Assembly (NCBI RefSeq): GCF_020622065.1
Contig: NZ_JAHRYQ010000001.1
Span: forward strand, 186,001 to 250,000
Length of the DNA stretch: 64,000 nucleotides
Reading direction: 5' to 3'
From: Geothrix sp.
Lineage (GTDB): Bacteria > Acidobacteriota > Holophagae > Holophagales > Holophagaceae
Made by a program: the position numbers and the translations under genes. Below, piece after piece: positions 26,637 to 63,548 of this stretch. The notes below the pieces were generated by a model. That model was given only the letters and a program-made list of their open reading frames with translations. It was not told the DNA's origin and did not search any database. Positions within the stretch are counted from its first letter, which is position 1, and each line of letters opens with the position of its first letter.

Positions 26637-26681
26637 ACTGCGGTTCCAGTACCCAACCTGCTTGATGGCATCAAACCACGG

Positions 26682-26716: not shown

Positions 26717-26782
26717 CATCACGACCTTCAAATCATGGATTTCCCTCGGGATGATCGCAGCCCGGGGCCCAGGGAGTCGCCC

Positions 26783-30955: not shown

Positions 30956-30987
30956 GAGTCCCATAATCTTCAAGGAACAGAAAGGTT

Positions 30988-31023
30988 GGCGGAGCGGGGC
31001 ACGGCCCGCTCCGCCCTGTTTTG
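30988..31023 (+). terminator. Intrinsic terminator after the Ig/propeller lipoprotein gene
   Basis: GGCGGAGCGGG (30988-30998) pairs with CCCGCTCCGCC (31005-31015), an 11-base stem with a six-base loop, and is followed by CTGTTTTG. Confidence 0.82.
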
Positions 31024-31084
31024 TGCCATCCAGCACAAGAGCATCCGGGGATTCCCTGTCGAGATTCTGGTAGCCTGTCCCCTT

Positions 31085-32059
31085 ATGTCTCAGCCGTCCG
31101 AAGCGCCCACCCTGGACCTCAAGGCCAGCCTGAAGAAGCCCCTCCAATGGGCATTGGCGGCAGGCTTGCTGACAGCCATCGTCACCCTCTTCATGCCGAA
31201 CTACTACCGGTCCGAGGCGCGCCTGTTGCCCGTGGAATCCAAGGGGCTGTCTGGAAATCTCGGGGGCCTGGCCAGCGCCGCTGCCGCCTTCGGCGTGAGT
31301 GTGCCCGGTGGAGACAGCAGCGACGCCAATTTCGTGGATGTCTTGAATAGCCGCTGGTTGAAAGAACAACTGCTCCAAACTGAATTCCAGTATCACATTC
31401 GGTCTTGGCGTTTCGGGGCCGAGCGGATCGAGAAGGGCACCCTCTATGGCTACCTGAAAGCTGAGAATATGGATCGGGCGGTCCTGGGAATAAATGCCGT
31501 CTTGATTGTCTCTCGGGATCTCAAGTCGAAAGTCATCTCTATCACTGCTGAGACCAAGTCCCCCGAACTCTCACAATTAATTGTGCAGCGGGCTGGAAAA
31601 CTTCTCGAGGCATTCCTGCAGGAGAAGGGGCGAACCCGGGGGGGCGCAAAGGCTGCTTTCGCCGAAGCGCGCCTCTCCGACGCCCGACGGGAGATGGATG
31701 TGGCAGAGGATGCCCTACGCCACTTCCTTGAGGGAAACCGGAACTTCCAGACCAGCGGTGACCCTGCCGTACGACTCAGAGGCACTCGCCTGGAAACCGA
31801 CCTTCGCCTTCGCCAGCAACTCGTTAGCACCATTGCAATGAATCGCGAACAAGCACTACTGGAAGAGAAAAACGATATACCTATTCTCAATGTGCTGGAT
31901 CCGGGAAGCTTGCCTATCGAGAAAAGTGGACCGGTGCGAAGCCGAATTGTTGCATGGCTATTTCTCTTCTCTGGGCTCTTGGCTTGGGGATGGCCAAATC
32001 GGGAGTGGATTAAAAATCGATTGTTTGATGGATCGAACGCTGAGTCTGGAGAAATGTGA
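31085..32059 (+). CDS. Wzz/GNVR-type polysaccharide chain-length determinant protein
   Basis: 324 residues with the polysaccharide co-polymerase layout: a transmembrane helix near residues 21-37 (PLQWALAAGLLTAIVTLFM), a large periplasmic part with a coiled-coil-like stretch around 180-220 (EARLSDARREMDVAEDALRHF), and a second helix near 288-305 (SRIVAWLFLFSGLLAWGW). Such proteins sit in the inner membrane and set the length of O-antigen or exopolysaccharide made by Wzy. The C-terminal domain is short and lacks a tyrosine kinase. The frame is open to 30986, but the ATG at 31085 precedes the first conserved residues. It opens the polysaccharide locus; G+C begins to fall inside this gene. Confidence 0.8.
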   Translation: MSQPSEAPTLDLKASLKKPLQWALAAGLLTAIVTLFMPNYYRSEARLLPVESKGLSGNLGGLASAAAAFGVSVPGGDSSDANFVDVLNSRWLKEQLLQTEFQYHIRSWRFGAERIEKGTLYGYLKAENMDRAVLGINAVLIVSRDLKSKVISITAETKSPELSQLIVQRAGKLLEAFLQEKGRTRGGAKAAFAEARLSDARREMDVAEDALRHFLEGNRNFQTSGDPAVRLRGTRLETDLRLRQQLVSTIAMNREQALLEEKNDIPILNVLDPGSLPIEKSGPVRSRIVAWLFLFSGLLAWGWPNREWIKNRLFDGSNAESGEM

Positions 32060-46307: not shown

Positions 46308-46405
46308 CCGGGAGATTCCATCTCTCTTCGGGCCAGCGCTATTATGGGAGCTAGGTCGGCGTTATTCTTAATTTTGGGGATCTTGTCCGCATGAGGAAGT
46401 AGTTG

Positions 46406-47533
46406 ATGACCAAAACATTGAATAAAATTGCCATAACGGGCTCGTCAGGTTTTCTTGGCTGGCATCTCCGGTGTTGGGCGAAGCAGATGCCTTCCGTTGA
46501 AGTAATCGAAGTTCCGGATGAATCCTTTGATTCGCTGGAATCCTTGAGCGAGACCATCGGTTCGGCAGGCGTTGTCATCCATTTGGCCGGCATGAACCGT
46601 GGCCCTGAAGCAGAGGTCTACGAAACCAATCTGAAACTGGCCCGTAATTTGGCGGGAGCGCTGGATCGCCTCGGTGAGGCTCCGGTGATCTTGTTTGCCA
46701 ACTCCACCCATAGCTTTGGTGACAGCCCCTTCGGACAATCTAAACGGGAGGCTTCGGCTCTACTTGCGATGTGGGCAAAGGATCGAGGCGCGCGCTATGT
46801 GGATGTGGTCCTTCCGCATCTCTTCGGCGAGGGGGGGCGGCCCTTCTACAACAGTGCGTTCGCGACTTTTTGCCACCAGCTTGCCAATGGAGAGGAACCA
46901 CAGATTCTTCAGGATGGCCGAGTGGAGCTTATTCACGCACAGAGGGCGGCATCACGATTTATGGAACTGGCACTGGACACGGAAACTTCGGGTGCCGTTC
47001 GGATTGAAGGTATTCCGATGCAGGTCTCCGTCCTCTTGGCCCATCTCAAATCACTATACGGATCCTACGCGGAAGGTATCATCCCTGACCTCTCGGACCC
47101 CTTTCATCTGGATTGCTTCAATACGCTCCGCTCCTACCTATACCCGACCTGCTACCCAATGCCGCTGCGGCTGCATACCGACACTCGTGGCGGGCTTTTC
47201 GAAGCCGTGAAGACGCAGCATGGAGGGCAGGCTTTCCTTTCCTCAACGCATCCAGGGATCACCCGTGGACGGCACTACCATCATCGGAAGGTGGAACGAT
47301 TCCTTGTGGTATCCGGTGAAGCGGAAATCAGGATTCGGCGCTTGTTTTCCATGGAGGTTCAGGTGTTCCGGGTCAGCGGAGCCGAGCCCTGTTTCGTGGA
47401 TATGCCGACATTCCACGCGCATGAAATCACCAATGTAGGCACCCGAGATCTTCTGACATTATTTTGGAGCCACGAAATTTTTAATCCTTCCGACTCCGAT
47501 ACGTACCCTGAACCGGTTATTCTGAATCAATGA
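46406..47533 (+). CDS. fnlB: FnlB/WbjC-type UDP-sugar reductase-epimerase with cupin domain
   Basis: 375 residues: an SDR domain (IAITGSSGFLGWHLRCW, then FANSTHSFGDSPFGQSK) fused to a C-terminal cupin (GLFEAVKTQHGGQAF ... TRGRHYHHRKVERFLVVSG). This layout is diagnostic of FnlB/WbjC/CapF, the second enzyme of UDP-L-FucNAc synthesis, which epimerises C3 and reduces C4 of the 4-keto-6-deoxy sugar. It overlaps the 2-epimerase gene by four bases. The TTG at 46403 is an alternative start. Confidence 0.9.
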   Translation: MTKTLNKIAITGSSGFLGWHLRCWAKQMPSVEVIEVPDESFDSLESLSETIGSAGVVIHLAGMNRGPEAEVYETNLKLARNLAGALDRLGEAPVILFANSTHSFGDSPFGQSKREASALLAMWAKDRGARYVDVVLPHLFGEGGRPFYNSAFATFCHQLANGEEPQILQDGRVELIHAQRAASRFMELALDTETSGAVRIEGIPMQVSVLLAHLKSLYGSYAEGIIPDLSDPFHLDCFNTLRSYLYPTCYPMPLRLHTDTRGGLFEAVKTQHGGQAFLSSTHPGITRGRHYHHRKVERFLVVSGEAEIRIRRLFSMEVQVFRVSGAEPCFVDMPTFHAHEITNVGTRDLLTLFWSHEIFNPSDSDTYPEPVILNQ

Positions 47534-48657
47534 GCAAATTACGCGTCCTCACGGTTGTCGGAACCCGCCCCGAAATCATACGATTGTCCAGAGTCGTGGC
47601 CCAGTTGGAGCAGGACTTCGATCATCGGTTGGCCCACACCGGTCAGAACTATGATTTCGAACTCAATCAGGTCTTTTTCGAAGATTTGACCCTTCGCAAG
47701 CCCGACTACTTTCTAGGGGCAGTGGGTGGCGGTTTGGCTGAAACGATTGGTAACATCATCGCCCGCATCGACCCTGTTCTGGAAGAATTCCGGCCCGAAG
47801 CGATGCTCGTTCTCGGAGATACCAACAGCTGTCTAGCAGTGATTCCTGCCAAGCGACGCAAGATCCCAATATTCCACATGGAGGCGGGGAATCGATGCTT
47901 CGATCAGCGGGTGCCTGAAGAGACCAATCGCAAGATCGTGGACCACACCGCGGATATAAACCTACCATATAGTGACCACGCTCGGGAAAACCTCCTCCGC
48001 GAAGGGTTCCCCCCTGATCGCATTATCAAGACGGGGAGCCCGATGTTCGAGGTGCTGCATCACGCCATGGCGCGCATTGGCGCCTCGGATGTGCTGAACC
48101 GCCTTGCCCTTCAGCCGGACAACTACTTTGTGGTGAGTTGCCACCGCGAAGAGAATGTCGATGCCGAACCGAACTTGGTCCGTTTTGTGGATACGCTCAA
48201 CCAGCTCGCACTCAGCCGTGGAAAGCGTATCATCGTTTCTACGCACCCACGCACCCGGGCACGCCTGGATGCGCTGGGGTTGACCCTGGATCCTCGGGTG
48301 GATCTCCTCAAGCCTCTGGGGTTCCTCGACTATATCCGTCTCCAGCAGTCGGCATCCGCCGTTCTGTCCGACAGCGGCACCATTACCGAGGAATCGTCCA
48401 TCCTTGATCTGCCGGCCCTAAACCTGCGAGAAGCCCATGAGCGACCCGAGGGCATGGAAGAGGGGGCTGTAATGATGACGGGGCTGGCCTGGGGGCGGGT
48501 GGACCAAGCTCTCGCCATGCTCGAATCGCGCACGCGTGACAGGAGGCAATCCCGCATAGTCTCTGACTACACGGCGCCTCATGTCAGCCAGACGGTGGCA
48601 CGGGTGATCCTCAGCTATGCGGACTATGTCAACCGTGTGGTGTGGCGCCAGTATTGA
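47530..48657 (+). CDS. fnlC: UDP-N-acetyl hexosamine 2-epimerase, FnlC/WbjD type
   Basis: 375 residues. Non-hydrolysing 2-epimerase family: VVGTRPEIIRLSRVV at the start, THTGQNYD-type segment (AHTGQNYDFE), MLVLGDTNS, HMEAGNRCFDQRVPEE and SDSGTITEESSILDLP. FnlC/WbjD/CapG completes UDP-L-FucNAc from the FnlB product. It directly follows fnlB. By family it could also act on UDP-GlcNAc or serve as the missing 2-epimerase of the diamino uronic acid pathway; the coupling to fnlB favours the FucNAc role. Confidence 0.9.
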   Translation: MSKLRVLTVVGTRPEIIRLSRVVAQLEQDFDHRLAHTGQNYDFELNQVFFEDLTLRKPDYFLGAVGGGLAETIGNIIARIDPVLEEFRPEAMLVLGDTNSCLAVIPAKRRKIPIFHMEAGNRCFDQRVPEETNRKIVDHTADINLPYSDHARENLLREGFPPDRIIKTGSPMFEVLHHAMARIGASDVLNRLALQPDNYFVVSCHREENVDAEPNLVRFVDTLNQLALSRGKRIIVSTHPRTRARLDALGLTLDPRVDLLKPLGFLDYIRLQQSASAVLSDSGTITEESSILDLPALNLREAHERPEGMEEGAVMMTGLAWGRVDQALAMLESRTRDRRQSRIVSDYTAPHVSQTVARVILSYADYVNRVVWRQY

Positions 48658-48669
48658 GACCTCGCAGCC

Positions 48670-49908
48670 GTGCGCATCCTCATCCTATCCCAATATTTCG
48701 ACCCGGAACCTACGTTCAAGGGTCTGCTCTTCGCGCACGAGCTGATGAAGCAAGGGCATGTTGTTGAGGTACTGACGGGCTTTCCCAACTACCCGTTGGG
48801 GAAGTTGTACCCCGGCTACAGGATGAAGCTTCTACAAAGAGAAAACCTCGGTGGAATAAGAGTCACTCGGGTGCCTCTGTTTCCGAGCCATGATTCGGGC
48901 GGGTTCCGCAGAATGGCCTCCTACCTGAGTTTTGCGGGCACCGCAGCGCTGATGGGCCCTTGGGTGGTCCGGAAACCTGATGTCATTTACGCCTACCACG
49001 GCAATGCCACCATAGGAGTGCCGGCTTGGGTGATCGGGATGATCCGACGAGTCCCGTTCGTACTGGATATTCAGGACCTTTGGCCGGATTCTGTCACATC
49101 CTCAGGCATGCTCCCTGCCAAATTCCAGGCCATGATTCCGGCCTTGGAAGCATGGTGCAGGTTTCTGTACCGCCGTTCCGCTCGGATCGTGGTGCTGTCG
49201 CCAGGATTGAAACGAGTCCTCATGGCTCGAGGTGTACCCGAGGAAAAGGTGGAGGTCATCCCGAACTGGTGCGATGAGATCCAGATCCAGCCTGGGTCAG
49301 CAAGGCCGGAGGAGGAAAGCCTCCTGGAGGGTCGTTTCAATGTGGTGATGGCAGGCAACATGGGTCGGATGCAAGGTCTGGATGTGGTCCTGGAAGCGGC
49401 CCAGCTCCTTCAAGGCCCTGCACCACAGGTGCAGTTTGTGCTGGTGGGTGGCGGCGTGGATCGGCCTCGCCTGGAAAAACGAATGGCTTCGCTGGGGTTG
49501 AAGAATATCCTCTTCTTGCCGGGAAGGCCGATGGATGAGATCGGCGCCCTGCTTCACCGTGCGGACGCATTGCTGGTCCACCTCAAGGATGATCCATTGT
49601 TCGCGATTACCATTCCTTCTCGCATTCAAGCCTACCTGGCGGTTGGTAGGCCGCTCTTGTGCGGAGTCCGCGGGGATGGGGCGGAGTTGGTAAAGGAGGC
49701 TGGAGCGGGCTTCTGCTTCGAACCAGAATGTCCAGAAGCCCTGGCGGGTGCCGTACTCACGGTCCTGAACCTGTCCACGGAGGAACGACGCGAGATCGGC
49801 AGGAGAGGCAGCGAATTCTATAAAGATCGGCTGTCTCTTTCCGTTGGAACGAAGGCCTTTCTTCGTTTTTTCGACCGAACCCTGAGTGGCAGGTCCCAAT
49901 TCAGTTAG
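48670..49908 (+). CDS. Glycosyltransferase, WbuB-like (putative L-FucNAc transferase)
   Basis: 412 residues from a GTG at 48670. Start RILILSQYFDPEPTFKGLLF, LTGFPNYPLGKLYPGYR and LDIQDLWPDSVTSSGML are hallmarks of the WbuB/WbjE group; VMAGNMGRMQGLDVVLEAA and FAITIPSRIQAYLAVGRPLL complete the GT4 donor lobe. WbuB in E. coli adds L-FucNAc, consistent with the fnlB-fnlC genes immediately before and fnlA immediately after. Confidence 0.85.
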   Translation: MRILILSQYFDPEPTFKGLLFAHELMKQGHVVEVLTGFPNYPLGKLYPGYRMKLLQRENLGGIRVTRVPLFPSHDSGGFRRMASYLSFAGTAALMGPWVVRKPDVIYAYHGNATIGVPAWVIGMIRRVPFVLDIQDLWPDSVTSSGMLPAKFQAMIPALEAWCRFLYRRSARIVVLSPGLKRVLMARGVPEEKVEVIPNWCDEIQIQPGSARPEEESLLEGRFNVVMAGNMGRMQGLDVVLEAAQLLQGPAPQVQFVLVGGGVDRPRLEKRMASLGLKNILFLPGRPMDEIGALLHRADALLVHLKDDPLFAITIPSRIQAYLAVGRPLLCGVRGDGAELVKEAGAGFCFEPECPEALAGAVLTVLNLSTEERREIGRRGSEFYKDRLSLSVGTKAFLRFFDRTLSGRSQFS

Positions 49909-49972
49909 GGGCGGACATACCCCCCTTTTTTCCTTTTTAATCATGATCCATTCAGATACCACGGAGCCACGC

Positions 49973-50998
49973 ATGCCACCTCTTGCCGGCCTATCGAAAA
50001 AGAAACTGCTAATTACCGGAGGAACGGGTTCATTCGGTAATGCGGTTCTGCGTAAATACCTTCAATCCGATATCGCCGAGATCCGCATCTTCAGCCGGGA
50101 CGAGAAGAAGCAGGATGATATGCGCCATGAGTATCACGATGACCGGATTAAGTACTACATTGGTGATGTCAGGGAGCCGGACGGCGTGTCCTCAGCTCTG
50201 AGGGGGGTGGATTATGTCTTTCATGCGGCGGCCCTCAAGCAGGTGCCATCCTGTGAGTTCTACCCGGTCGAAGCTGTGCGCACCAATGTCATGGGCACCC
50301 ACAATCTATTGAATGCGTGCATCCGTGAAGGCATCCAGAAGGTCATCTGCCTCAGCACTGACAAAGCCGTATATCCCATCAATGCTATGGGTATCTCCAA
50401 GGCCCTCATGGAGAAGGTCGCGATTGCGGAATCACGCAATTTGGTAGAAGGGCAAACCACCATTGTCGTAACCCGCTACGGCAATGTTATGGCCTCGAGA
50501 GGTTCGGTCATACCACTCTTTTTGGATCAAATCCGCGCTGGGAAACCCCTTTCGGTGACGGATCCCAGAATGACCCGGTTCTTGATGCATCTCGATGTGG
50601 CGGTGGAGTTGGTCGAGTTTGCGTTTGAGCACGGTCGAAATGGGGATACGTTCATCAGAAAATCACCTGCGGCGACCATGGGAGATCTGGCTCAGGCGGT
50701 TAGAGAATTGTTGAAAGTGGAGAATCCCATTCAGATTATCGGAACCCGGCATGGCGAAAAGCTATACGAATCTCTGGTGTCGAGGGAAGAAATGGTTCGT
50801 GCGGAGGACATGGGTGGTTTCTACCGTGTTCCAGCCGATGCCCGAGATCTGAACTACGGGAAATATTTCACAGATGGGGATCTTAGTCTGAGCCAAGCAG
50901 AGGAATACCATTCCCATAACGCGCAGCGCCTGGATCTGCCCGCAATCCAGACGCTGCTGCAGACCCTGGATTGCGTTCGCGCCGCCAGGGCCCTTTGA
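49973..50998 (+). CDS. fnlA: UDP-GlcNAc 4,6-dehydratase/5-epimerase, FnlA/WbjB/CapE type
   Basis: 341 residues, the CapE length, without the N-terminal membrane domain of WbpM. Rossmann motif TGGTGSFGNAVLRKYL, AALKQVPSCEFYP, the active-site CLSTDKAVYPINAMGISK and RYGNVMASRGSVIPLF are intact. It catalyses the first step from UDP-GlcNAc to UDP-L-FucNAc. The order here is fnlB-fnlC-wbuB-fnlA rather than the common A-B-C. I set the start at ATG 49973 because GGAG lies eight bases upstream; ATG 49943 is in frame. Confidence 0.9.
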   Translation: MPPLAGLSKKKLLITGGTGSFGNAVLRKYLQSDIAEIRIFSRDEKKQDDMRHEYHDDRIKYYIGDVREPDGVSSALRGVDYVFHAAALKQVPSCEFYPVEAVRTNVMGTHNLLNACIREGIQKVICLSTDKAVYPINAMGISKALMEKVAIAESRNLVEGQTTIVVTRYGNVMASRGSVIPLFLDQIRAGKPLSVTDPRMTRFLMHLDVAVELVEFAFEHGRNGDTFIRKSPAATMGDLAQAVRELLKVENPIQIIGTRHGEKLYESLVSREEMVRAEDMGGFYRVPADARDLNYGKYFTDGDLSLSQAEEYHSHNAQRLDLPAIQTLLQTLDCVRAARAL

Positions 50999-51041: not shown

Positions 51042-51680
51042 ATGAATGGGTCTCTGTTGAACATGTCCAACCTGGTCAAGCGATGCTTGGATCTGACGGT
51101 CAGCTCACTGCTCCTCCTGCTGATCTGGCCCATCCTGGTCCTTTTGTGGGTCCTCATTCGCTGGGGCATGGGGACGCCAACTCTCTACCGGCAGGTTCGG
51201 CCGGGATATCGGGGACGCCTCTTTCAGGTCTACAAGTTCCGGACCATGAATGAATCCAGGGATGTGGATGGCCTGTTGCTCCCTGACCGCGACCGCCTCA
51301 CCTGCCTGGGACGGTGGATGAGGAGGCTGAGCCTAGATGAACTGCCACAACTCTTTAATGTGGTCCTCGGGGATATGAGCTTAGTTGGACCACGTCCCCT
51401 GCTGATGCAGTACTTAGAGCGCTATTCTCCGGAGCAAGCCCGGCGGCACGAGGTCCGGCCGGGGATTACGGGCTGGGCCCAGGTGAACGGGCGAAATGCT
51501 CTGAGTTGGGAGGAAAAATTTCGCCTCGATGTTTGGTATGTTGACCATCAGACATTTTGGCTGGACCTCAGAATCCTCTTTCTGACCGCGTGGAAGGTGG
51601 TCCGCCGGGATGGCATCAGTGCCGCTGATTCCGCGACCATGCCAGAATTCTTAGGGACCAATCCTCCCCCGAAAAGCTGA
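51042..51680 (+). CDS. Initiating phosphoglycosyl transferase, PglC/WcaJ superfamily
   Basis: 212-residue short monotopic enzyme. One N-terminal membrane hairpin (TVSSLLLLLIWPILVLLWVLI) is followed by YRQVRPGYRGRLFQVYKFRTM, LSLDELPQLFNVVLGDMSLVGPRP and WAQVNGRNALSWEEKF, the conserved core including the catalytic Asp-Glu dyad (DELPQ). It transfers sugar-1-phosphate from a UDP-sugar to undecaprenyl phosphate, starting the repeat unit. Size and sequence fit PglC, which uses UDP-diNAc-bacillosamine, and the needed dehydratase, aminotransferase and acetyltransferase occur at 61448, 57690 and 57019. ATG 51063 is an alternative start. Confidence 0.85.
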   Translation: MNGSLLNMSNLVKRCLDLTVSSLLLLLIWPILVLLWVLIRWGMGTPTLYRQVRPGYRGRLFQVYKFRTMNESRDVDGLLLPDRDRLTCLGRWMRRLSLDELPQLFNVVLGDMSLVGPRPLLMQYLERYSPEQARRHEVRPGITGWAQVNGRNALSWEEKFRLDVWYVDHQTFWLDLRILFLTAWKVVRRDGISAADSATMPEFLGTNPPPKS

Positions 51681-51784
51681 AAATCCTGCGGCCTTCCCGA
51701 CTCAGCAAGGCCTAAGTTCGTCGGCCCTGAATAAGTCCAAAATATAGATTTGGCAGGAATTTGCGGGAACTTCAGGCATGTCTG

Positions 51785-51827
51785 GTACACCAGAAAGTGA
51801 GGGGGGACCCCCAATTTTCTGGTGTAC
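51785..51827 (+). promoter_or_regulatory. Hairpin just ahead of the transposase start
   Basis: GTACACCAGAAA (51785-51796) pairs perfectly with TTTCTGGTGTAC (51816-51827), with G-rich and C-rich blocks in between. In transcripts entering from outside, it would sit directly against the ATG at 51830 and could block its translation, a control seen in other insertion sequences. Confidence 0.5.
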
Positions 51828-51829
51828 GG

Positions 51830-52201
51830 ATGAAGCCGAAACCGAGGCGGACAACGAGCGAGCAGCTGGTGATCGGCTGGAAGCTGGACCTGGCGCTGGA
51901 CCCGAACCACGAGCTGGTGCGGCTGGCGGCGGTGATCCCCTGGGAGGATCTGACGGCGGAATTCGGCCGCATGAATGTGCTCGACCTAGGGCGTCCTGGC
52001 ATTCCGGTCCGGTTGATGGCGGGCCTTCATCTGCTGAAGCACACCTACGGACTGTCGGATGAACAGGTGGCGAAGGGCTGGGTGGCCCACCTCTGGGCCC
52101 TTTTGCGTCTGCTCATAGGCGAGGTGAGGCGGACCATCAGCGCCCTGATCGCCTTCCTCGAACCTCAGGCGGGGTTCAGGCCGCTTCTCATATCCTTCTG
52201 A
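51830..52201 (+). pseudogene. Truncated IS5/IS1182-like transposase
   Basis: 123 residues. The N-terminal part PKPRRTTSEQLVIGWKLDL, then DPNHELVRLA, FGRMNVLDLGRPGIPVRLMA and LKHTYGLSDEQVAKGW, matches IS5-superfamily transposases up to the point where the catalytic DDE region should begin. It then continues into an unrelated or C-terminal stretch (LRLLIGEVRRTISALIAFL) and stops. The whole DDE core is missing, so the product cannot transpose. An internal deletion joining N- and C-terminal pieces is the simplest explanation. Confidence 0.82.
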
Positions 52202-52235: not shown

Positions 52236-53477
52236 TCAGGTGCGCAGAGTCACGCGGCGAAGACAGTCCTCGATCAGGTCATAGCCATCCCAGATGGGCT
52301 CAAAGGCCAAGGCCTCACCAATGGGCACGATTCGATCAAGGCCCAAGGAACCACCTTGATAAGCCAGATGGGTGAGCTCGCCTGGTTCGAACCCGAAATG
52401 AGTCAGCGTCTGGTCCCCATCATCCAGGTGACAGGTGAGCTCCTCAAGGGAGTCCAGGCGAATCATACGCAGAAAGCCCCCGCCACAGGTGGCCTTGTCC
52501 AACAGGTGGTTCTGTTCCAGGGTCGCCACCACCAAGGAAGGGTGACTGAAATCGATCCTCACCTCGGCCCTTGCGGCTAGATCAAAGGCAGCATTGGCCC
52601 GTTTGGAGGCATGGGGGATCGAAGTCGAGTGATTGCGCCGGGCAGCCTCGACCTGCAGCTTTTCCAGGAATACCGGGGTAGCACTTGCCACTTCTGAGGC
52701 TGAACCACACCAGAAGAGGACTTGGGGCGATGAACAAGCCGCCTGATTAAACCAGAAGAAGTCGTTATAGAAGGCGCTCGCCAGCTTCTCCTGCTCTGTC
52801 TGCCCCAGAGCCAAGTAGGACGCTGCTTTGATCATGGCGTAGGAATACTTGCTCGCAAAGCTGCGCTCGCTAGCATGGGGATTCAGGGGCACCCCACGCA
52901 GGGCCTGAACCGTCTCATTCCCACCCCAGACGATCCTGTGGCCGCACCAATCCGAAAAGCCACCGGATAGGGCTGCATCATGTTCGTAGGTCACGAAACG
53001 ATTGGCTGTTGCGAGATCCGGGAAGCGCAGGGCCACCTCCCCGATGGCCTTTAACAGTTCGCCCACCAGAAAGGGTTGCTCGCGAGAAAGCCGAACGACA
53101 TTCTGATTGCCCGCCAGGTAGGCAAGGGCCCACGAGTAAAGGAAAAGGGTGTCGATGTTCGAGGGGGCCACATGAAAGACTCGGCCCACTGGAACCCAGA
53201 TGAGATTCCCAGCGGTCCTGGCTCTGTGCGCGTCGCGGAGTCTAATCAGGTTTGATTTCCGGAGCCAGAACGCGGTGGCCACGCTTGCCGGATCTTGACG
53301 GAGCGTTGGGGAGCCCTTGAGAAGGTATTCGGACAAGGCCGCAAGGGCGTCAATGCGATGCGCGGCGAAGGGCTCTGCAGGGGGCACCCTGGTCTCGAGA
53401 AAGGACTTGAGGTCGGCTGAGACCGTTGGGGCGAGTATGTGCACCCTTTGCGTCCAGTGGGTGGTGGTGACACTCAT
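52236..53477 (-). CDS. LuxC-type acyl-protein/acyl-CoA reductase
   Basis: 413 residues. LuxC belongs to the aldehyde-dehydrogenase superfamily and reduces an enzyme-bound acyl group to an aldehyde with NADPH. The presumed catalytic Cys lies in FNQAACSSPQVLFW; VGRVFHVAPSNIDTLFLYSW and LAGNQNVVRLSREQP correspond to the cofactor-binding half. I placed the start at ATG 53477, which has AGGAGG six to nine bases upstream, in preference to 53483 or 53519. It is the last gene of the minus-strand operon, starting two bases after the luxE-like gene ends. No luciferase (luxAB) is present in the window, so light production is not implied. Confidence 0.85.
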   Translation of the reverse strand: MSVTTTHWTQRVHILAPTVSADLKSFLETRVPPAEPFAAHRIDALAALSEYLLKGSPTLRQDPASVATAFWLRKSNLIRLRDAHRARTAGNLIWVPVGRVFHVAPSNIDTLFLYSWALAYLAGNQNVVRLSREQPFLVGELLKAIGEVALRFPDLATANRFVTYEHDAALSGGFSDWCGHRIVWGGNETVQALRGVPLNPHASERSFASKYSYAMIKAASYLALGQTEQEKLASAFYNDFFWFNQAACSSPQVLFWCGSASEVASATPVFLEKLQVEAARRNHSTSIPHASKRANAAFDLAARAEVRIDFSHPSLVVATLEQNHLLDKATCGGGFLRMIRLDSLEELTCHLDDGDQTLTHFGFEPGELTHLAYQGGSLGLDRIVPIGEALAFEPIWDGYDLIEDCLRRVTLRT

Positions 53478-53479
53478 GG

Positions 53480-54580
53480 TCATCCTCCTCCTGAGGGCGA
53501 TTGGACGGTATCGCTGCACCCGCGGATTTCCGCCTTCGGAACACGACCAAGGACCTCAAAGTGCTTCCCGCCCATCTGCAAGGAAGGTGCATCGACTCCA
53601 CGGATGACGCCAAGGTCTTCGGTCAGCAGGCTGTGGCCCGGGTAGCTGGTGGGCAGGGCACTCAGAACCTGGATCAGCCCCACTTCACCATCAGGGAGGG
53701 GCTGTAGGGTCGCGGGATCGCGAATGATGACATCGGAATAGATGGGGGCATGAAGGCTGTGGAGCGGATTCTCGAAGTAGACCCCACCAACCTGTTCCAC
53801 CATGCCGTAGAAGTTCACCACATTCCGGATTCCGGTTGTTTCCAGAACGCGCTTTCTAAATGCTTCTGCACTGACGGACTGATCTTGCAGCTTCTTCCAG
53901 CCGCCGGAGTGGATCAGGATCGCCTCGGGTAGGTCGATACGCTCCCCGAGCGCTTCCAGTACCTGCACCAAACCCTGCCAGACCATGAATGTAAACCCGA
54001 AAAGCAGGATGCGCTGGCTTTTGGCGTGGGCCATGTAGTCTTTCAGGCCTTCCAGATCCAGGCTTAGGTCCTCACGCAGGGCGTAGAAGGGTCGATGACC
54101 GAATTGGGCCATGCCGAGGATCCCGGCGCCCCTGGCGGAAAAGGAAGTGCGGTCCTTGACCACGCCCGGATGATCCAAAACGATCATGGGTAAGCGTTCG
54201 CGACCCAGGAAATGCTGCACCACCTTGATGAGCACTGCGGCCTGCATACGGGCGGTTTCCTTATCCAGGAAAATGCGACTGACCTGCTGGCCTGTCGTGC
54301 CACTCGAGGTCAGGGTTTTCAGAACCTCCTCATCCGGGATGCTCTTGAGGGTGTATTCCTTGAAGAGACTCACTGGCAGGAAGGGGACATCTTCCATGCG
54401 AGTGATGGCAGTCCCTTTGGTGTACCCGAATACGCGCCGAATGATGTCCCGGTATAACTCGCAAGAATCAATGTGGTGATCCGTCAGCGCAGTGAGCTTG
54501 GGCAGCAGCCTTTGAACCTTCTCTGCTTGGGAAAGTCCGAAGGGTGGCAATTCCAGCAGGTCGGCGGCAGGGCTCAGCAT
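53480..54580 (-). CDS. LuxE-type acyl-protein synthetase
   Basis: 366 residues. LuxE activates a fatty acid with ATP and transfers the acyl group to LuxC through its own Cys. Family segments seen: YRDIIRRVFGYTKG near the N-terminus, PVSLFKEYTLKSIPDEE, the phosphate-loop-like SSGTTGQQVSR, DHPGVVKDRTSFSARG, and the GGWKKLQDQSVSAEAF region. The C-terminal domain ends in LTEDLGVIRGVDAPSLQMGG, the AMP-ligase type hinge. It overlaps the preceding acyl ligase gene by seven bases. LuxE and LuxC homologues side by side imply reduction of an acyl thioester to an aldehyde. Confidence 0.87.
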   Translation of the reverse strand: MLSPAADLLELPPFGLSQAEKVQRLLPKLTALTDHHIDSCELYRDIIRRVFGYTKGTAITRMEDVPFLPVSLFKEYTLKSIPDEEVLKTLTSSGTTGQQVSRIFLDKETARMQAAVLIKVVQHFLGRERLPMIVLDHPGVVKDRTSFSARGAGILGMAQFGHRPFYALREDLSLDLEGLKDYMAHAKSQRILLFGFTFMVWQGLVQVLEALGERIDLPEAILIHSGGWKKLQDQSVSAEAFRKRVLETTGIRNVVNFYGMVEQVGGVYFENPLHSLHAPIYSDVIIRDPATLQPLPDGEVGLIQVLSALPTSYPGHSLLTEDLGVIRGVDAPSLQMGGKHFEVLGRVPKAEIRGCSDTVQSPSGGG

Positions 54581-55983
54581 GGTTTCAGCCCTCTCAGCGC
54601 CAAGTAATCCATCTTACCGCTGCTGCTCCTGGGGATGGCATCGAGATGGATGATCTTGATGCTGTTCGGAGGTACTTGCAGCGATTTGGAGATGGAAAGG
54701 GCTATGGAATCAGGGATCGCATCATGGAGTGTTTCGAGGAACAGGAAGAGCTGGTTCTCCCCTTCAATGGCTGCGGCAGAACACTTGAAGTCTCGCTCAA
54801 CCATTCGCTCGAGATCTTCGAGCCCTACTCGGTTGCCGAACAGCTTGGCGAACCGATTGAGCCGCCCGACCAAGGTGAAAAAGCCGTCCTCATCCACTGT
54901 GGCCAAATCCCCAGTCGCCAGGGAACCAAGCAGCTCGTCCCCCTTGGCCAAGTCCGCTATCGATTCTGCATAACCCATCATCACATTTGGGCCTTCATAG
55001 ATCAGTTCATGCTGGCCTTCCAGGCCATCCACAGGTCTCAGGCTGAGGCGCCCATCCGGGATGGGAATGCCGATGCTTCCCAGTTTCCTCTCGAGCTGAC
55101 TTGGAGGGAGGTAGGAAATCCGAGCCGATGCCTCGGTCTGGCCATACATGACATAAAAATCAATATTCGCTGCCACCGAGAGGCCATGAAAGTGAGAGAT
55201 GAGCTCACGCTTCAGTCCCCCACCGGCCTGGGTCAGCGAACGAAGGGTCGGGTGCTTTTTGGGATTGAACCGAATTCGGTGCAGGGTTTCATACATATAG
55301 GGGATGCCGGCAAACGAAGTGCAGGCCTCTGTATCCACCTGCTTCCAGAATTCCGGACGAAGGAAGGAATCTGGTGTGAGGACGACAGTCCCGCCACTGC
55401 CCAAATGTGAATTCAGGATCGATAGGCCGTAGGAATAATGCATCGGAAGACTTTGGATGGCGCGCTCGCCTGGACCGAGGTGCAGGTATGAGGCAATGGA
55501 CTTGGCGTTGGCCTTTAGATTCCCTTGGGTCAACCTAACCAGCTTGGGGCTTCCCGTGGATCCTGAGGTGGTCAGCATGACCGCAAGATTCGGATGCACG
55601 GCGTAAGCAGGTCCACCTGATTTGACGGAGTAGGACAGAAGGTTGAATTTGGAGAGTTTCGGATCCGGAGTGGATGGCAACTCATTCAACGGTTCAAGAA
55701 CGAGCGAGGGAAGGTAGGTCTCAAGCAGCGTTTGTGCGGGCGCCCGGGCATCCCTCAACAAAACAGGCATGCCTTGTTTAAGACAGGCCAAATAAAGAGC
55801 CACAAAATCAGTGGTCGGACTTGCGCCAAGGAACACAACGCCCCGGTGTGGGTTCAGATGCGTCAAGACTTCGGCTGCTTGAACCACTTTGGCGATGAGT
55901 CCTGCATATGTCAGCCGCTCGCCTCGAGTCACATCAACCAGTGCCTCTGCGGCAGGGTCTTGGCTCTTGATCAGGTCAAGCAT
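54574..55983 (-). CDS. Acyl-AMP ligase (ANL superfamily)
   Basis: 469 residues, shorter than most acyl-CoA synthetases. The P-loop TTSGSTGSPKLVRLTQGN, the MYGQTEASARISYLP motif, the GDLATVDEDGFFTLVGR hinge region and the catalytic Lys near the end (IPRSSSGKMDYLAL) are all visible. It would adenylate a carboxylic acid and load it on the adjacent acyl carrier protein or on CoA. The next gene (luxE-like) overlaps it; the FabG-like gene ends 34 bases upstream. Substrate is unknown; the small size resembles ligases of secondary metabolism and polysaccharide acylation. Confidence 0.86.
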   Translation of the reverse strand: MLDLIKSQDPAAEALVDVTRGERLTYAGLIAKVVQAAEVLTHLNPHRGVVFLGASPTTDFVALYLACLKQGMPVLLRDARAPAQTLLETYLPSLVLEPLNELPSTPDPKLSKFNLLSYSVKSGGPAYAVHPNLAVMLTTSGSTGSPKLVRLTQGNLKANAKSIASYLHLGPGERAIQSLPMHYSYGLSILNSHLGSGGTVVLTPDSFLRPEFWKQVDTEACTSFAGIPYMYETLHRIRFNPKKHPTLRSLTQAGGGLKRELISHFHGLSVAANIDFYVMYGQTEASARISYLPPSQLERKLGSIGIPIPDGRLSLRPVDGLEGQHELIYEGPNVMMGYAESIADLAKGDELLGSLATGDLATVDEDGFFTLVGRLNRFAKLFGNRVGLEDLERMVERDFKCSAAAIEGENQLFLFLETLHDAIPDSIALSISKSLQVPPNSIKIIHLDAIPRSSSGKMDYLALRGLKPC

Positions 55984-56017
55984 GGCAATCCATTCGTGAG
56001 TCCATTTGAAGAGGAAT

Positions 56018-56749
56018 TCAGGCGATCATCCCGCCGTCAACACCGATAACCTGGCCGGTCACATAGGCGGAGAGGTCAGACGCGAGGAACAAAGCCACCT
56101 TTGCGATATCTTCCGGCTGACCGATACGACCCATGCCGATGCTATCGATTCGTTTCTGGTACCAGTCGGCAGTGACGCCCTGGGTCATGTTGGTATCGAT
56201 GAAACCTGGGGCGATGGCATTGGCTCGAATCTGCTTTCGCGCGAGGTCCTTGGCGATGGCCAGCGTGAATCCGAGTACGGCACCCTTGGAGGCGGCATAG
56301 GCGGAAACGCCCTCCATGCCCCGTGTGCCGGCAATGGAGGCGATGTTCACGATGCTGGAGCCGGAAGGCAGGATCTTGAGGGCGAATTGAGTCCAGTTGA
56401 TCATGGCCATGACATTGACATCGAAAGTTTGGCGGGTCTGGCCCATGGAGATCATTCCCAGCAGCCCCTGCTGGATGACTCCGGCATTGTTGACGAGGAC
56501 ATTCAACTGCCCATGCTGCTTCTTGATCTGTACGATGGTTTGCCGGAGGAATGCGTCATCACAGACATCTCCAATGTGGGCATGGACCTCGGCACCAGTC
56601 TCAAGAGCCAACTGCTGAGCCAGGGTTTCCAGTTCCTGGCTGCGTGCACAGAGATGCAAGATCGCACCCGCACGAGCGAATTCCGACGCGATCGCCGCAC
56701 CAATGCCTCTGCTGGCGCCTGTGATGAGGGCGACTTTCCCATTGAGCAT
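56018..56749 (-). CDS. FabG-like short-chain dehydrogenase/reductase
   Basis: 243 residues. Cofactor loop TGASRGIGAAIA, NNAG (VLVNNAGVIQQG), catalytic Ser in NIASIAGTRG and Tyr-x3-Lys in YAASKGAVLGF, and the C-terminal GQVIGVDGGMIA, all typical of 3-oxoacyl-ACP reductases. It follows an acyl carrier protein with a one-base overlap. In this context it probably reduces a 3-keto group on an ACP-bound acyl chain to the 3-hydroxy form. A role in reducing a sugar intermediate is possible but less likely. Confidence 0.87.
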   Translation of the reverse strand: MLNGKVALITGASRGIGAAIASEFARAGAILHLCARSQELETLAQQLALETGAEVHAHIGDVCDDAFLRQTIVQIKKQHGQLNVLVNNAGVIQQGLLGMISMGQTRQTFDVNVMAMINWTQFALKILPSGSSIVNIASIAGTRGMEGVSAYAASKGAVLGFTLAIAKDLARKQIRANAIAPGFIDTNMTQGVTADWYQKRIDSIGMGRIGQPEDIAKVALFLASDLSAYVTGQVIGVDGGMIA

Positions 56750-56997
56750 TAGAAGGTCACGCCATGCTTGGTGAGGATCTCTTTGGCCTTGCCGACCGAG
56801 CTCAAACCGAGAATGTCGTCGGTATCCAACATGACATCAAAGACGGACTCGAGTTCACTCATCAGGTTCATGTGACCAAGGGAGTCCCATTCGCGAATGG
56901 AATTGTAGGCAAGCGTCTCGGTAACCACCTCGGCTGGAACACCCAGGGCCGTTGTGAAACAGACTTGGAGTTTGTTCAGGTTCTCGGCATTGGTCAT
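56749..56997 (-). CDS. Acyl carrier protein
   Basis: 82 residues. The phosphopantetheine site is Ser 39 in the motif EWDSLGHMNL, and helices II and III (LMSELESVFDVMLDTDDIL) follow the ACP fold. This is not the housekeeping AcpP (DSLDTVE type) but the DSLGHMNL type found in stand-alone ACPs of polysaccharide and secondary-metabolite clusters. The gene is embedded in a single transcription unit with the ligase, FabG-like reductase and LuxE/LuxC genes, so it is their likely carrier. Confidence 0.88.
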   Translation of the reverse strand: MTNAENLNKLQVCFTTALGVPAEVVTETLAYNSIREWDSLGHMNLMSELESVFDVMLDTDDILGLSSVGKAKEILTKHGVTF

Positions 56998-57018
56998 ATG
57001 ACCTCCTTGAATACGGAT

Positions 57019-57669
57019 TCAGGCTGGTTTGACGGGGACCAGGCGGGCAGGTGTTCCAAGGGCTGTCGTGGAATCGGGGATGTCCACCGCACAGAAACTG
57101 CCGCCGCCCAGGATTGAATTGTGGCCCATGTGTCGCCCTGGAGCCAGGGCCGCATTGGTGCCGAGAAAAGCCCCCGTCTCGATGATGCAGTTGCCACTGA
57201 TCCGGGCACCGGGACAGAGCTGGGCGAACATCTCGACGCGGCAGTCATGCCCTACGGATGCATGGAGGTTCACGATGATATGATCTTTCAGGACCGTTTG
57301 ATTGGAGATGATGCATCCAGGGGCCAAATAGGTCCCGACTCCGATTTGGGTTTCCAGCCCGAGGATCACCGAGGGGTCAATGATGGAAAGCGGCTGCCAC
57401 TGGCTGCTCAGGCAACGATCCACCAGGGTTTTCCGGACGGCATTGTTCCCGATGGCACAGATGAAGTGCATCCCATCTGTGTGGGGGTCCTTTAGCAATG
57501 CCTCCAGCGAGAGAACAGGCAGGCCGAGTTGGGTTTGACCGACCAGCGCCGGGTTGTCGTCACAATAGCCCACGAGATTGAATTCCCCGGACTGCCCCAT
57601 GGATCGCCCATAGGACCAAGCGATTTCCTTGCCCAGTCCTCCGGCACCGATGATGACCAATGATTTCAC
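57019..57669 (-). CDS. PglD/NeuD-type sugar acetyltransferase
   Basis: 216 residues. N-terminal Rossmann-like domain (SLVIIGAGGLGKEIAW, VGYCDDNPALVG) and C-terminal left-handed helix of hexapeptides (ILGLETQIGVGTYLAPGCII, NLHASVGHDCRVEMFAQ) with the catalytic His in ASVGHDC. PglD acetylates the 4-amino group of UDP-4-amino-bacillosamine; NeuD members act on sialic-type sugars. Next to a DegT aminotransferase and with a PglF-type dehydratase and PglC-like enzyme in the same locus, the bacillosamine role is the most economical reading. It lies 20 bases downstream of the DegT gene. Confidence 0.86.
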   Translation of the reverse strand: MKSLVIIGAGGLGKEIAWSYGRSMGQSGEFNLVGYCDDNPALVGQTQLGLPVLSLEALLKDPHTDGMHFICAIGNNAVRKTLVDRCLSSQWQPLSIIDPSVILGLETQIGVGTYLAPGCIISNQTVLKDHIIVNLHASVGHDCRVEMFAQLCPGARISGNCIIETGAFLGTNAALAPGRHMGHNSILGGGSFCAVDIPDSTTALGTPARLVPVKPA

Positions 57670-57689
57670 TAAGATCCTCGAGAATGGCG

Positions 57690-58907
57690 CTAGAAGCAGG
57701 AACGAGAAAGCACGTGCCGAAGCGACTCAACGGCCGAGGCAATGGAGGCCTCAGTCAAGGTTGGGTGAACCATGAACATCAGGCTCGTTTCGCCGAGGCG
57801 TTTCGCAATGGGGAATGAGCAGTCTTGGCCACTGGGGAGCGTCGAGAATGCTTTTTCCAGATAGATTTCGCTGCAGCTGCCGCTAAAACAGGGCACACCC
57901 GTGGCTGTCACCTCGGTCATGATCCGGTCTCGAGTCCATTGGGGGTGGAGAGTCTCTGGCTTGAGGTAGACATAGGCCTTGTAGGCAGCATGGCCAAAGT
58001 CTCCATCCGCCCTTGGGATATGCAGTGCGGGATGACCTGCAAGCCCATCAAACAGCTGGTTCATATGGGCCTTTCGCAGTCGCGTCCACTCGGACAATTT
58101 CCGCAGCTGAATCCTGCCGACAGCCGACTGCAACTCGGTCATCCGCCAGTTGGTTCCGAAGGACTCGTGCAGCCAACGAAATCCGGGGGCCTGTTGGCGA
58201 TGGTAGACGGCATCGTAGCTCTTGCCATGGTCTTTGTACTCCCAGGCTCGGCGCCAAACCTGCTCATCGTTGGTCGTAAGCATTCCGCCTTCGCCACCCG
58301 TGGTGATGATCTTGTCCTGGCAGAAGGAAAAGCAACCCACATGGCCGATGCCGCCAACGGGGCAGCCCTTGTAGGTTGCGCCATTGGCTTGAGCACAATC
58401 TTCGATCACCTTGATCCCATGCTTCTTGGCCAAAGCCATGATGGGGTCCATGTCGCAGGGCCAGCCGGCGAGGTGGACAGCGATGATGGCGCGGGTCTTG
58501 GGAGTTATGACCTTGGCGATGGATTCGGCTGTGATGTTCCCGCTGTCTGGATCCACTTCGGCAAGCACAGGCGTGCACCTGCGGGCTACGGCTGCGCTAG
58601 CGCTGGCGATAAAGGTGCGGGGGCTGGTGATCACTTCTGCCCCGGCTGGGATCTCCAGGGCATGCAGAGCCAGTTCCAGGGCAACCGTGCCATTCATGAG
58701 GGCGACGGCGTATCGGCAGCCGGCGGCTGCAGCGTATTCTTCCTCGAAACGGCGGCCTTCTTCCCCAGTCCAGTAATTCACCTTCCCGCTTCGGAGAACC
58801 TGAGCCACGGCATCAACCTCATCCTCGGCATAGAAGGGCCAAGGAGCAAAGGCTGGCACTGCGTGAGATGAACCAAGTGGGAGCTGGGTGTGGGGTAGCT
58901 TGGTCAT
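57690..58907 (-). CDS. PLP-dependent sugar aminotransferase, PglE-like (DegT family)
   Basis: 405 residues from ATG 58907. The frame extends to 58958, but the ATG chosen follows GGAGCCCTCCC closely and gives the family N-terminus after a short leader. PLP lysine in SFCQDKIITTGGEGGML, AEVDPDSGNITAESI, and VIEDCAQANGATYKG are DegT landmarks. PglE aminates C4 of UDP-2-acetamido-4-keto-6-deoxy-glucose. It heads the minus-strand operon and is followed by the PglD-like gene. The alternative is amination of an aldehyde or ketone made by the LuxC pathway, which would be new for this family. Confidence 0.84.
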   Translation of the reverse strand: MTKLPHTQLPLGSSHAVPAFAPWPFYAEDEVDAVAQVLRSGKVNYWTGEEGRRFEEEYAAAAGCRYAVALMNGTVALELALHALEIPAGAEVITSPRTFIASASAAVARRCTPVLAEVDPDSGNITAESIAKVITPKTRAIIAVHLAGWPCDMDPIMALAKKHGIKVIEDCAQANGATYKGCPVGGIGHVGCFSFCQDKIITTGGEGGMLTTNDEQVWRRAWEYKDHGKSYDAVYHRQQAPGFRWLHESFGTNWRMTELQSAVGRIQLRKLSEWTRLRKAHMNQLFDGLAGHPALHIPRADGDFGHAAYKAYVYLKPETLHPQWTRDRIMTEVTATGVPCFSGSCSEIYLEKAFSTLPSGQDCSFPIAKRLGETSLMFMVHPTLTEASIASAVESLRHVLSRSCF

Positions 58908-58995: not shown

Positions 58996-59057
58996 CCCTG
59001 CCAAGGTCCATGAATCGGGGCTCCAATAGGAGCCCCGATTCATGGACCTTGGCAGGG
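58996..59057 (-). repeat. Perfect 29-bp stem hairpin between pnp and the aminotransferase gene
   Basis: Bases 58996-59024 are the exact complement of 59029-59057, with a four-base AATA loop. The hairpin starts nine bases after the pnp stop codon on the transcribed strand. No T-run follows, so it is not a typical intrinsic terminator. It may protect or process the pnp transcript end, or be a palindromic insertion. Confidence 0.9.
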
Positions 59058-59066: not shown

Positions 59067-61250
<2,184 letters not shown>

Positions 61251-61447
61251 GCAAGCTCCTGGGCCCTCGGGCCCAATGGGCTCCCCTGAGCCCGGCTCAG
61301 CGTCCGGGTCTCCCGCGATCGCTCCATGAAACCCGTCCGCCAAATCCTGAACCAGGAGGGGAGGTGGGCTTCCTGCAGAGGTCGCCGCCGAAGGGGAGCA
61401 GGTGGAAATCGGCAGGATCAGCATAACACGCTGAGCCTTCAGGCGCT

Positions 61448-63424
61448 TTAGGCCTGCTGGGCCTTGGGCACATAGATGGCATGGGCGCCCGAACCGCGGC
61501 GGTCGCGGACCTCTTCCGAATAGCGTCCCAGGCCACTGGGCGAAGGGGCATAGGTCGGCACGAGTAGTCGCAGCCAGTGGAGAATCTGGGCCTGGCGCCT
61601 GCCCTCCCCCTCCATGATTGAAAGGCGGAGGGCCGCAGCCCCTTCTTCCAGAAGGTCGTCATCCAGTTCTTCCGGATTGGCGTTGAAGACCTTGGGATGG
61701 ACCCCCGTGCGGGACTCCTCCTGCTGCGTGAAGAGTTCTTCGAACAGCTTCTCGCCGGGCCGGATGCCGCTGAACTGCACCTCGATGTCCTGCCCGGGCA
61801 GCAGTCCGGACAGGCGCGCCATGTCCGTGGCCAGATCGACGATCTTGACGGGGTCGCCCATGTCCAGGACATAGACCTTGGCGGTGTCACCCAGGATGCC
61901 CGCCTGGAGCACCAGCTGGCTGGCTTCGGGGATGGTCATGAAGTAGCGGGTCATGTCCGGGTGGGTCACGGTGATGGGTCCACCCACGCGGATCTGCTCC
62001 TTGAAGATGGGAATGACGCTCCCCCGGCTCCCCAGGACATTGCCGAACCGCACACTGACATAGCGCGTTCCTTCAGGAGCCCGTCGGGCTGCCCGGAGCA
62101 CCAGGGACTCTGCGATCCGCTTGGTTGCCCCGAGCACATTGGTGGGGTTGACGGCCTTGTCTGTGGAGATGTTCACAAAGGTGTGGGTGCCCACCGCCAA
62201 GGCAGCGTTCACCACATTCAGGGTTCCGAAGACATTGTTGTCCACAGCCTCCTCGGGATGAGCCTCCAGGTAGGGCACATGCTTGTGGGCCGCGGCGTGG
62301 AACACCACCTGCGGTTTCCAGCGGTTGAACACCTGCTGGAGGCGAATCGGATTGCGGACATCGCAAAGCTCCAGGGAGAGCCCCTGGTTGGGAAAGAGGC
62401 TCCGGAGGGAGCGTTCGGTTTCCCACAGGCTGTTTTCGCCGCGCCCCAGCAGGACGATCCGGGCGGGGCGGAAGGCGGCTACCTGGCGGGCGATTTCGCC
62501 CCCGATCGACCCACCGCCTCCGGTGATGAGCACCACGGCATCTTCAAGCACGAGGTTGAGGGAGCTCTGGTCCAACTCCACGGGCTCCCGCCGCAGGAGG
62601 TCCTCGATGGAGACATCTTGCAATTCCGGCTTCCAAACCCGCGATCCCAGCAGGTTGAAGAGTCCTGGTGTGGTCTTGACCTCGATCCCGGCGGAGCGGA
62701 CCACATCCGTCAGCTGCCGGATCACGGAACCAGGGGCGCTGGGAATGGCCAGCACCACCTGAGTGGCTTCTTCCTTCCGGATGATCTGGTGAAGCAGCCG
62801 GGACGGACCCAGCACCCGGGTCCCCTGGATGCGGATGCCCTGCTTGTCGAGGGCATCATCAATGAAGCCTACGATTCGAGTCCCCAACTCGGGATGCCGC
62901 TTGAGTTCCTCGGCAATCATCAGCCCCGCCCGGCCGGCCCCGACGATGAGGGTGCGGTGCGGGATGGCCCCATCCGGCAGCTGATCGATGCCCAGGTCCC
63001 GTTCGTGGCGGGCTCGGATGGCCCCTCTGAGGGTGAGCCACAATCCGCCGGTGGTCAGGGCGGAGGCCAGGGCCGTTTCCAGATCGAAGACCGAGTGGAG
63101 TTCGCGGGCCAGGACCGTCACGAACGCGCTCAGCACCAGCAGGGTCGTGGTGGCCAGGGCCAGCCGGACGGCGTCCCGGAAGCCGATGAGGCGGTAGTGC
63201 TGGCGGGTCAGCTGGAAGACGAGGTTGACGGCCAGAGCCAGGAGGGTCCACTTCAAGGCCCCATGCGGCGTCAGGTGGGCCCCCACGAAGACCCGCTCGC
63301 AAAGCATCCAAGCCAGCAAGGCCGCCCCGCCGTCCAGAACAAGCTTGACCCCTTGCCGAAGCAGGGGTTGGTCCAGGGTGGATGGAGGCGGAAGTGAGGA
63401 CCGGTAGGCAGGGGGAGGGTTCAT
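61448..63424 (-). CDS. Membrane-bound UDP-GlcNAc 4,6-dehydratase, WbpM/PglF/CapD type
   Basis: 658 residues from ATG 63424, or 669 from a GTG at 63457; neither has a strong ribosome-binding site. Four transmembrane helices occupy about residues 20-140, then a CoA-binding-like Rossmann domain (TLIVGAGRAGLMIAEEL) and the dehydratase domain with ITGGGGSIGGEIARQ, VNISTDKAVNPTNVLGATKR and RFGNVLGSRGSVIPIF. Enzymes of this type make UDP-4-keto-6-deoxy-GlcNAc for QuiNAc, FucNAc or bacillosamine. Combined with the PglE- and PglD-like genes, bacillosamine synthesis is plausible. Confidence 0.9.
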   Translation of the reverse strand: MNPPPAYRSSLPPPSTLDQPLLRQGVKLVLDGGAALLAWMLCERVFVGAHLTPHGALKWTLLALAVNLVFQLTRQHYRLIGFRDAVRLALATTTLLVLSAFVTVLARELHSVFDLETALASALTTGGLWLTLRGAIRARHERDLGIDQLPDGAIPHRTLIVGAGRAGLMIAEELKRHPELGTRIVGFIDDALDKQGIRIQGTRVLGPSRLLHQIIRKEEATQVVLAIPSAPGSVIRQLTDVVRSAGIEVKTTPGLFNLLGSRVWKPELQDVSIEDLLRREPVELDQSSLNLVLEDAVVLITGGGGSIGGEIARQVAAFRPARIVLLGRGENSLWETERSLRSLFPNQGLSLELCDVRNPIRLQQVFNRWKPQVVFHAAAHKHVPYLEAHPEEAVDNNVFGTLNVVNAALAVGTHTFVNISTDKAVNPTNVLGATKRIAESLVLRAARRAPEGTRYVSVRFGNVLGSRGSVIPIFKEQIRVGGPITVTHPDMTRYFMTIPEASQLVLQAGILGDTAKVYVLDMGDPVKIVDLATDMARLSGLLPGQDIEVQFSGIRPGEKLFEELFTQQEESRTGVHPKVFNANPEELDDDLLEEGAAALRLSIMEGEGRRQAQILHWLRLLVPTYAPSPSGLGRYSEEVRDRRGSGAHAIYVPKAQQA

Positions 63425-63548
63425 GGCTCGAGACGGCTCATCAATAGAGGAATACACGGGTGTGCTTGGGTGGCTGAAAGAGCTGCGGGCTCATGATAAC
63501 CTGAACCCTTGTCAATGCTGGATTTCATGTGAATTCATTGGAGATGTC

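Follow-up and report, generated by a model that had tools for sequence, protein, structure and literature searches.

The closest described relatives of the operon examined here are the tetronate genes of Vibrio cholerae O1 and certain flagellin-glycosylation islands. The operon lies at 52236-58907 on the minus strand of a 64,000-nucleotide stretch of Geothrix sp. DNA (contig NZ_JAHRYQ010000001.1, positions 186,001 to 250,000; hereafter the window). In two reports on V. cholerae O1, a gene set is assigned to the synthesis of the N-acyl group of perosamine, 3-deoxy-L-glycero-tetronate (PMC3441752; PMC4772473), and RfbN is described as having a LuxE domain and serving tetronate synthesis (PMC4772473 citing Morona et al. 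1995). In the group II islands of Aeromonas (98 strains), genes for an acyl carrier protein (ACP), a 3-oxoacyl-ACP reductase, an AMP-dependent synthetase, luxE and luxC follow one another in that order; in A. piscicola AH-3 these five cassette genes are located directly downstream of pseH, and a similar gene set is found in Enterobacteriaceae (PMC4875605). An earlier note on the Geothrix operon could name no established product for its combination of genes. Precedents do exist: the cassette and the tetronate route are already known and the system is not categorically new. In the literature searched, we found no description of a PglFED-type sugar coupled to a short-chain dehydrogenase/reductase (SDR) and unfused LuxE and LuxC. 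We propose that the operon probably encodes a pathway dedicated to supplying the N-acyl donor for a bacillosamine-type sugar. The acyl group delivered is quite probably short and polar and, as a tentative assignment, could be dihydroxybutyryl, 2,4-dihydroxybutyryl (3-deoxytetronyl, C4H6O3) being the likeliest form.

Open-reading-frame (ORF) calls and Pfam matches confirmed that the seven minus-strand genes are present and intact and, being separated by no more than 34 bases or overlapping, form one operon, as the earlier note had claimed. From upstream to downstream they encode a DegT/PglE-type 4-aminotransferase (57690..58907, with the longest ORF extending to 58958; PF01041, 298 bits), a PglD/NeuD/VioB-family sugar N-acyltransferase (57019..57669; TIGR03570, 174 bits against a cut-off of 160.8), a dedicated ACP (56749..56997; PF00550, 20.8 bits, exactly at the cut-off), a FabG-like SDR reductase (56018..56749; PF13561, 208 bits), an AMP-forming ligase of the ANL type, proposed to be an acyl-ACP ligase (54574..55983; PF00501, 146 bits), a LuxE-type acyl-protein synthetase (53480..54580; PF04443, 173 bits) and a LuxC-type acyl reductase (52236..53483; PF05893, 75 bits against a cut-off of 21). 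The ANL ligase has 469 amino acids and V. cholerae WbeL 471 (PMC3441752). Gaps of 20, 21 and 34 bases separate DegT from PglD, PglD from ACP and SDR from ANL, respectively; SDR and ACP have 1 base in common, luxE and ANL overlap by 7 bases, and luxC, which likely starts at ATG 53483 (the longest ORF reaches 53519), overlaps the luxE stop by 4 bases. Motifs expected of active enzymes are intact throughout: the pyridoxal phosphate lysine of DegT, the GHD motif of PglD, the phosphopantetheine serine of ACP (DSL), TGASRGIG and YxxxK in the SDR, the P-loop and C-terminal catalytic lysine (SSSGK) of the ANL ligase and SSGTTG in LuxE. The acylation cysteine of LuxE is Cys355, by alignment to the LuxE of PDB 7xc6 (79 bits), and the active-site cysteine of LuxC, Cys262, aligns with those of lux LuxC and RfbN; LuxC alone, used as a PDB query, gave no match.

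The joining of an amino-sugar branch to the ANL, ACP, SDR, LuxE and LuxC genes, likewise proposed earlier, was borne out. DegT matches PDB 7L7X (516 bits, E 8.7e-154), an enzyme for which kinetics show conversion of UDP-4-keto-6-deoxy-GlcNAc to the 4-amino sugar, and whose partner acetylates this product with acetyl-CoA (PMC8040287). Of the PglFED pathway, the operon contains the 4-aminotransferase, identified by sequence only, and an N-acyltransferase of the PglD family, whose relatives of solved structure are bacillosamine and perosamine N-acetyltransferases. A PglF/WbpM-type UDP-GlcNAc 4,6-dehydratase (61448..63457, minus strand; PF02719, 372 bits) likely supplies the 4-keto sugar, and a PglC-type sugar phosphotransferase (PGT; 51042..51680, plus strand; PF02397, 212 bits) is a candidate user of the acylated UDP-sugar.

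In the proposed pathway, the dehydratase and DegT would convert UDP-GlcNAc to UDP-2-acetamido-4-amino-2,4,6-trideoxyglucose. LuxE would adenylate a small polar acid at one of its carboxyls and hand the thioester to LuxC, which would reduce it to a (semi)aldehyde, serving as an intermediate only, that the SDR would reduce to the alcohol; malate would in this way give 2,4-dihydroxybutyrate. The ANL ligase would activate the other carboxyl and load the ACP, from which PglD would move the acyl group to the C4 amine, and the PglC-type transferase would probably feed the acylated UDP-sugar into glycan assembly. We infer the order of reactions, the identity of the acid and the use of acyl-ACP by PglD. 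PglD and ACP have been proposed to act as an N-acyl system in Flavobacterium (PMC6519341), and the location of an N-acyltransferase directly beside the ACP, in the window and in many relatives, points to an acyl-ACP donor and to the aldehyde as a mere intermediate. For this reason the end products that the earlier note had suggested, an aldehyde or a lipid anchor, now appear the least likely, and neither a lipid nor a free aldehyde is probably the product. The LuxC family does form aldehydes, and an aldehyde could in principle react with an amine or stay on the glycan, but SDR, ANL and ACP would then go unused and the conserved neighbours are N-acyltransferases, which makes this outcome highly improbable.

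To place the cassette in context, an alignment of LuxE was used to scan representative genomes, which confirmed at least 560 relatives; the best 80 were taken, and these span Pseudomonadota, Bacillota, Actinomycetota, Bacteroidota, Verrucomicrobiota, Acidobacteriota and others. Linkage was counted at the loci with at least 5 kb on either side of LuxE (n=58), and the counts apply to close relatives, not to LuxE proteins in general. ANL accompanies LuxE in 58/58 loci, ACP and LuxC each in 55/58 and SDR in 46/58, with all five genes together in 43/58. The exact order of the window, ACP-SDR-ANL-LuxE-LuxC, occurs in 19 of the 58 and a version with SDR and ACP swapped in 14. Since this linkage recurs across many phyla it is not due to chance, and the lack of conserved linkage that the earlier note had named as grounds for abandoning a unified pathway was not encountered. 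A search for the enterobacterial cassette in E. coli found nothing. Immediately upstream of ACP, seven loci have a gene of the PglD type, as judged by best hit, and a GNAT acetyltransferase model matches 20/50 scanned genes in this position, as expected for PseH of pseudaminic clusters. Sugar genes of the type present in the window accompany the cassette in several loci: L176 (PGT-PglD-ACP-SDR-ANL-LuxE-LuxC-DegT), in which PGT, directly beside PglD, is 60% identical to that of the window, DegT 55% and LuxE 53%; L095 (DegT-PglD-ACP-SDR-ANL-LuxE-LuxC); L065 (dehydratase-DegT-PGT-ACP-SDR-ANL-LuxE-LuxC), which has no recognised PglD; and likewise L051 and L112. Dehydratase homologues adjoin the cassette in L051 and L065, and the ACP of the window is 57-60% identical to those of L176 and L095. 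Separately, we observed split transketolase genes accompanying the cassette (for example at 11370-13153 of L166) in 20/37 full-length loci of one LuxE clade and in 2/50 elsewhere, which suggests a chain-extension variant.

The tetronate genes of V. cholerae O1 are reportedly rfbK-L-M-N-O, with RfbM said to be an iron alcohol dehydrogenase (Fe-ADH). Two RfbKLMN-type loci, L180 and L181, carry ACP, ANL, an Fe-ADH and a LuxE::LuxC fusion; this Fe-ADH is similar to lactaldehyde reductase and 4-hydroxybutyrate dehydrogenase, which fits the reduction of a hydroxy-acid semialdehyde. The window has linked ACP, ANL, LuxE and LuxC genes and lacks the Fe-ADH and the fusion. Its LuxE matches the L180 fusion with 197 bits and a luminous LuxE with 77, and in a LuxE tree it groups with the cassette LuxEs, a very long branch leading to luminous LuxE; long branches meet at the luminous side, where the placement of RfbN is uncertain. 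Both types of RfbN and 107/107 cassette LuxEs have Arg150 of LuxE, which three luminous LuxEs lack; our guess is that it lies in the substrate pocket. The NCBIfam equivalog thresholds are not reached by either protein (24 of 750 bits for LuxC, 97 of 550 for LuxE). Homologues of luxA and luxD were not found in the genome, in searches that did match the luminous genome G637 used as positive control; for LuxD the protein served as query, as the Pfam model matched no control. The operon does not serve bioluminescence, in agreement with the earlier note.

Mass data from the AH-3 flagellin, quoted in one paper, bear on the nature of the acyl group. The AH-3 glycan is linked through a pseudaminic derivative of 376.14 Da, and the chain terminates in an unassigned moiety of 102 Da; the 376 Da sugar persists in the fgi-1 mutant, for which no deletion of the cassette is described. 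A computed 376.148 results when C4H6O3 takes the place of one acetyl in Pse5Ac7Ac, C4H6O3 itself corresponds to 102.032, and the computed masses for hydroxybutyryl, glyceryl, malyl, succinyl and fatty acyls misfit 376 Da. By reinterpretation, both AH-3 groups may be a C4H6O3 acyl. The family names, and both flagellin-island papers, which suggested a liposugar component from the same genes, favour action of LuxE, LuxC, ACP and ANL on fatty acids, yielding a lipid-modified sugar or a fatty aldehyde or alcohol anchor. The AH-3 masses, however, include no fatty acyl (C8 or C14 replacement would give 400 or 484 Da, not 376), LuxE with its changed motifs groups with the cassette proteins and RfbN far from luminous LuxE, luxD is missing from the genome and RfbN serves a four-carbon hydroxy acid; we consider this explanation very doubtful. 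A route of the type II fatty-acid kind, in which the SDR would reduce 3-oxoacyl-ACP to a 3-hydroxybutyryl or 3,4-dihydroxybutyryl donor and LuxE and LuxC would give a precursor aldehyde, also appears rather improbable: the SDR is close to FabG models, although it falls under the cut-offs of the listed NCBIfam models, and a Flavobacterium ACP, 3-ketoacyl-ACP reductase and PglD homologue together with ketosynthases have been proposed to make 3,5-dihydroxyhexanoyl (PMC6519341), but the operon contains no ketosynthase, which leaves LuxE and LuxC without an obvious place, and 3-hydroxybutyryl would give 360 Da, not 376. Two further flagellins were considered. AH-1 (403 Da; an island without the glycosyltransferase block) is not a direct test and was set aside, and that of Shewanella MR-1, with a differing glycan and a described cluster without LuxE and LuxC, was not used as support.

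A number of points weigh against an acyl-ACP pathway delivering dihydroxybutyryl. The donor of the characterised PglD relatives is acetyl-CoA (PMC8040287), PglD is divergent among the cassette loci (27-33% identity), pnp lies between the dehydratase and the operon, and the PGT sits on the opposite strand. The presence of an SDR in place of an Fe-ADH and of unfused LuxE and LuxC means that the product need not be tetronate. The AH-3 authors proposed fatty aldehyde channelling and a liposugar and called the 102 Da moiety a carbohydrate; its assignment, and that of the 376 Da sugar, to C4H6O3 is our own reading, and isomers of C4H6O3 (3,4-dihydroxybutyryl, O-methylglyceryl) are equal in mass. The use of acetyl-CoA by characterised PglD relatives would also suit an arrangement in two branches, with PglD making a diacetamido sugar and the ACP cassette acylating another residue of the same polysaccharide, and locus L065, with cassette, DegT and PGT and no recognised PglD, could be read in this way. 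However, ACP is directly adjoined by PglD or GNAT genes in many loci and the operon holds no other acyltransferase, which renders such a division unlikely; gene adjacency suggests that the donor for PglD is acyl-ACP.

The operon is flanked by pnp (59067-61424) and an IS5-type transposase fragment, and is adjoined by a plus-strand polysaccharide locus, in a genome of 3.35 Mb. The GC content of the cassette genes is 52-59%, compared with 65% for pnp. LuxE is present in 2/77 genomes of the same family, a sample in which the window genome is the sole carrier of its genus, and this rarity fits a horizontally exchanged surface locus. In a sample of the phylum, 40/396 genomes have a LuxE match, many of which are distant or belong to other gene types. 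The IS5-family fragment itself occupies 51761-52201, between the PglC-type gene and luxC. At 46403-50998 the window contains a WbjC-like reductase, a WecB-type epimerase and a FnlA-like dehydratase (526 bits, below the cut-off), which suggest a putative L-FucNAc branch of the same polysaccharide locus. Between pnp and the operon lies a hairpin of 29 base pairs (arms 58996-59024 and 59029-59057, 4-base loop, z -12.8) that is without an obvious T run and whose sequence is found nowhere else in the genome. Elsewhere in the window there are two very long open frames on the minus strand, at 7854-16721 (2955 codons) and 21395-31396 (3333 codons). A different LuxE/LuxC gene group was also observed in the same phylum (L043 6458-18011, L044 9114-17273 and L045 6969-13992), in which LuxE is adjoined by two further proteins of ~430-455 amino acids; this group also has a transporter-like protein, its LuxC frame is very long, and it is not of the amino-sugar type.

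More broadly, we put forward as a possibility, with some reserve, that a widespread and unnamed cassette uses carboxyl reduction by LuxE and LuxC to make a dihydroxybutyryl-ACP donor, which in many phyla N-acylates nonulosonic sugars and sugars of the bacillosamine type, and that a sister branch containing transketolase leads to longer chains. If true, this would explain the unassigned groups of 376 and 102 Da on Aeromonas flagellin, put specific, testable chemistry in place of the labels 'liposugar' and 'fatty acid synthesis' in flagellin islands, give LuxE and LuxC homologues a concrete role beyond luminous bacteria and predict unusual N-acyl groups on the surface sugars of many bacteria.

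Comparison with the known systems sets the operon apart from each of them. With luxCDE it shares the LuxC and LuxE folds and the acylation and active-site cysteines, but it has no LuxD or LuxA, its LuxE is distant, and ANL, ACP, SDR and PglD are added. The tetronate genes, compared at the sequence level through L180 and L181, share ACP, ANL, the LuxE and LuxC domains and the supply of the N-acyl group carried by a 4-amino-4,6-dideoxy sugar; they differ in having Fe-ADH where the window has an SDR, in the fusion of LuxE to LuxC and in the sugar. In Flavobacterium psychrophilum, ACP and a PglD homologue encoded by wfpC-G have been proposed to add a hydroxy acid to UDP-Qui2NAc4N by N-acylation, but the acyl chain is thought to be made by ketosynthases and LuxE and LuxC are not described (PMC6519341). 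The Aeromonas (likened by published description) and enterobacterial islands have the five functions of the cassette in identical order, adjoining amino-sugar genes, and the window carries these five genes on one strand in the published order with an N-acyltransferase gene, pglD, 21 bases upstream of ACP. The islands, however, are associated with pseudaminic acid, a PseH neighbour and a flagellin target, whereas the window lacks pseudaminic acid genes and a flagellar location: its cassette is surrounded by PglD, DegT, pnp, dehydratase, PGT and FnlABC-type genes, and the sugar would be a UDP-sugar of the PglFED type in a surface-polysaccharide locus.

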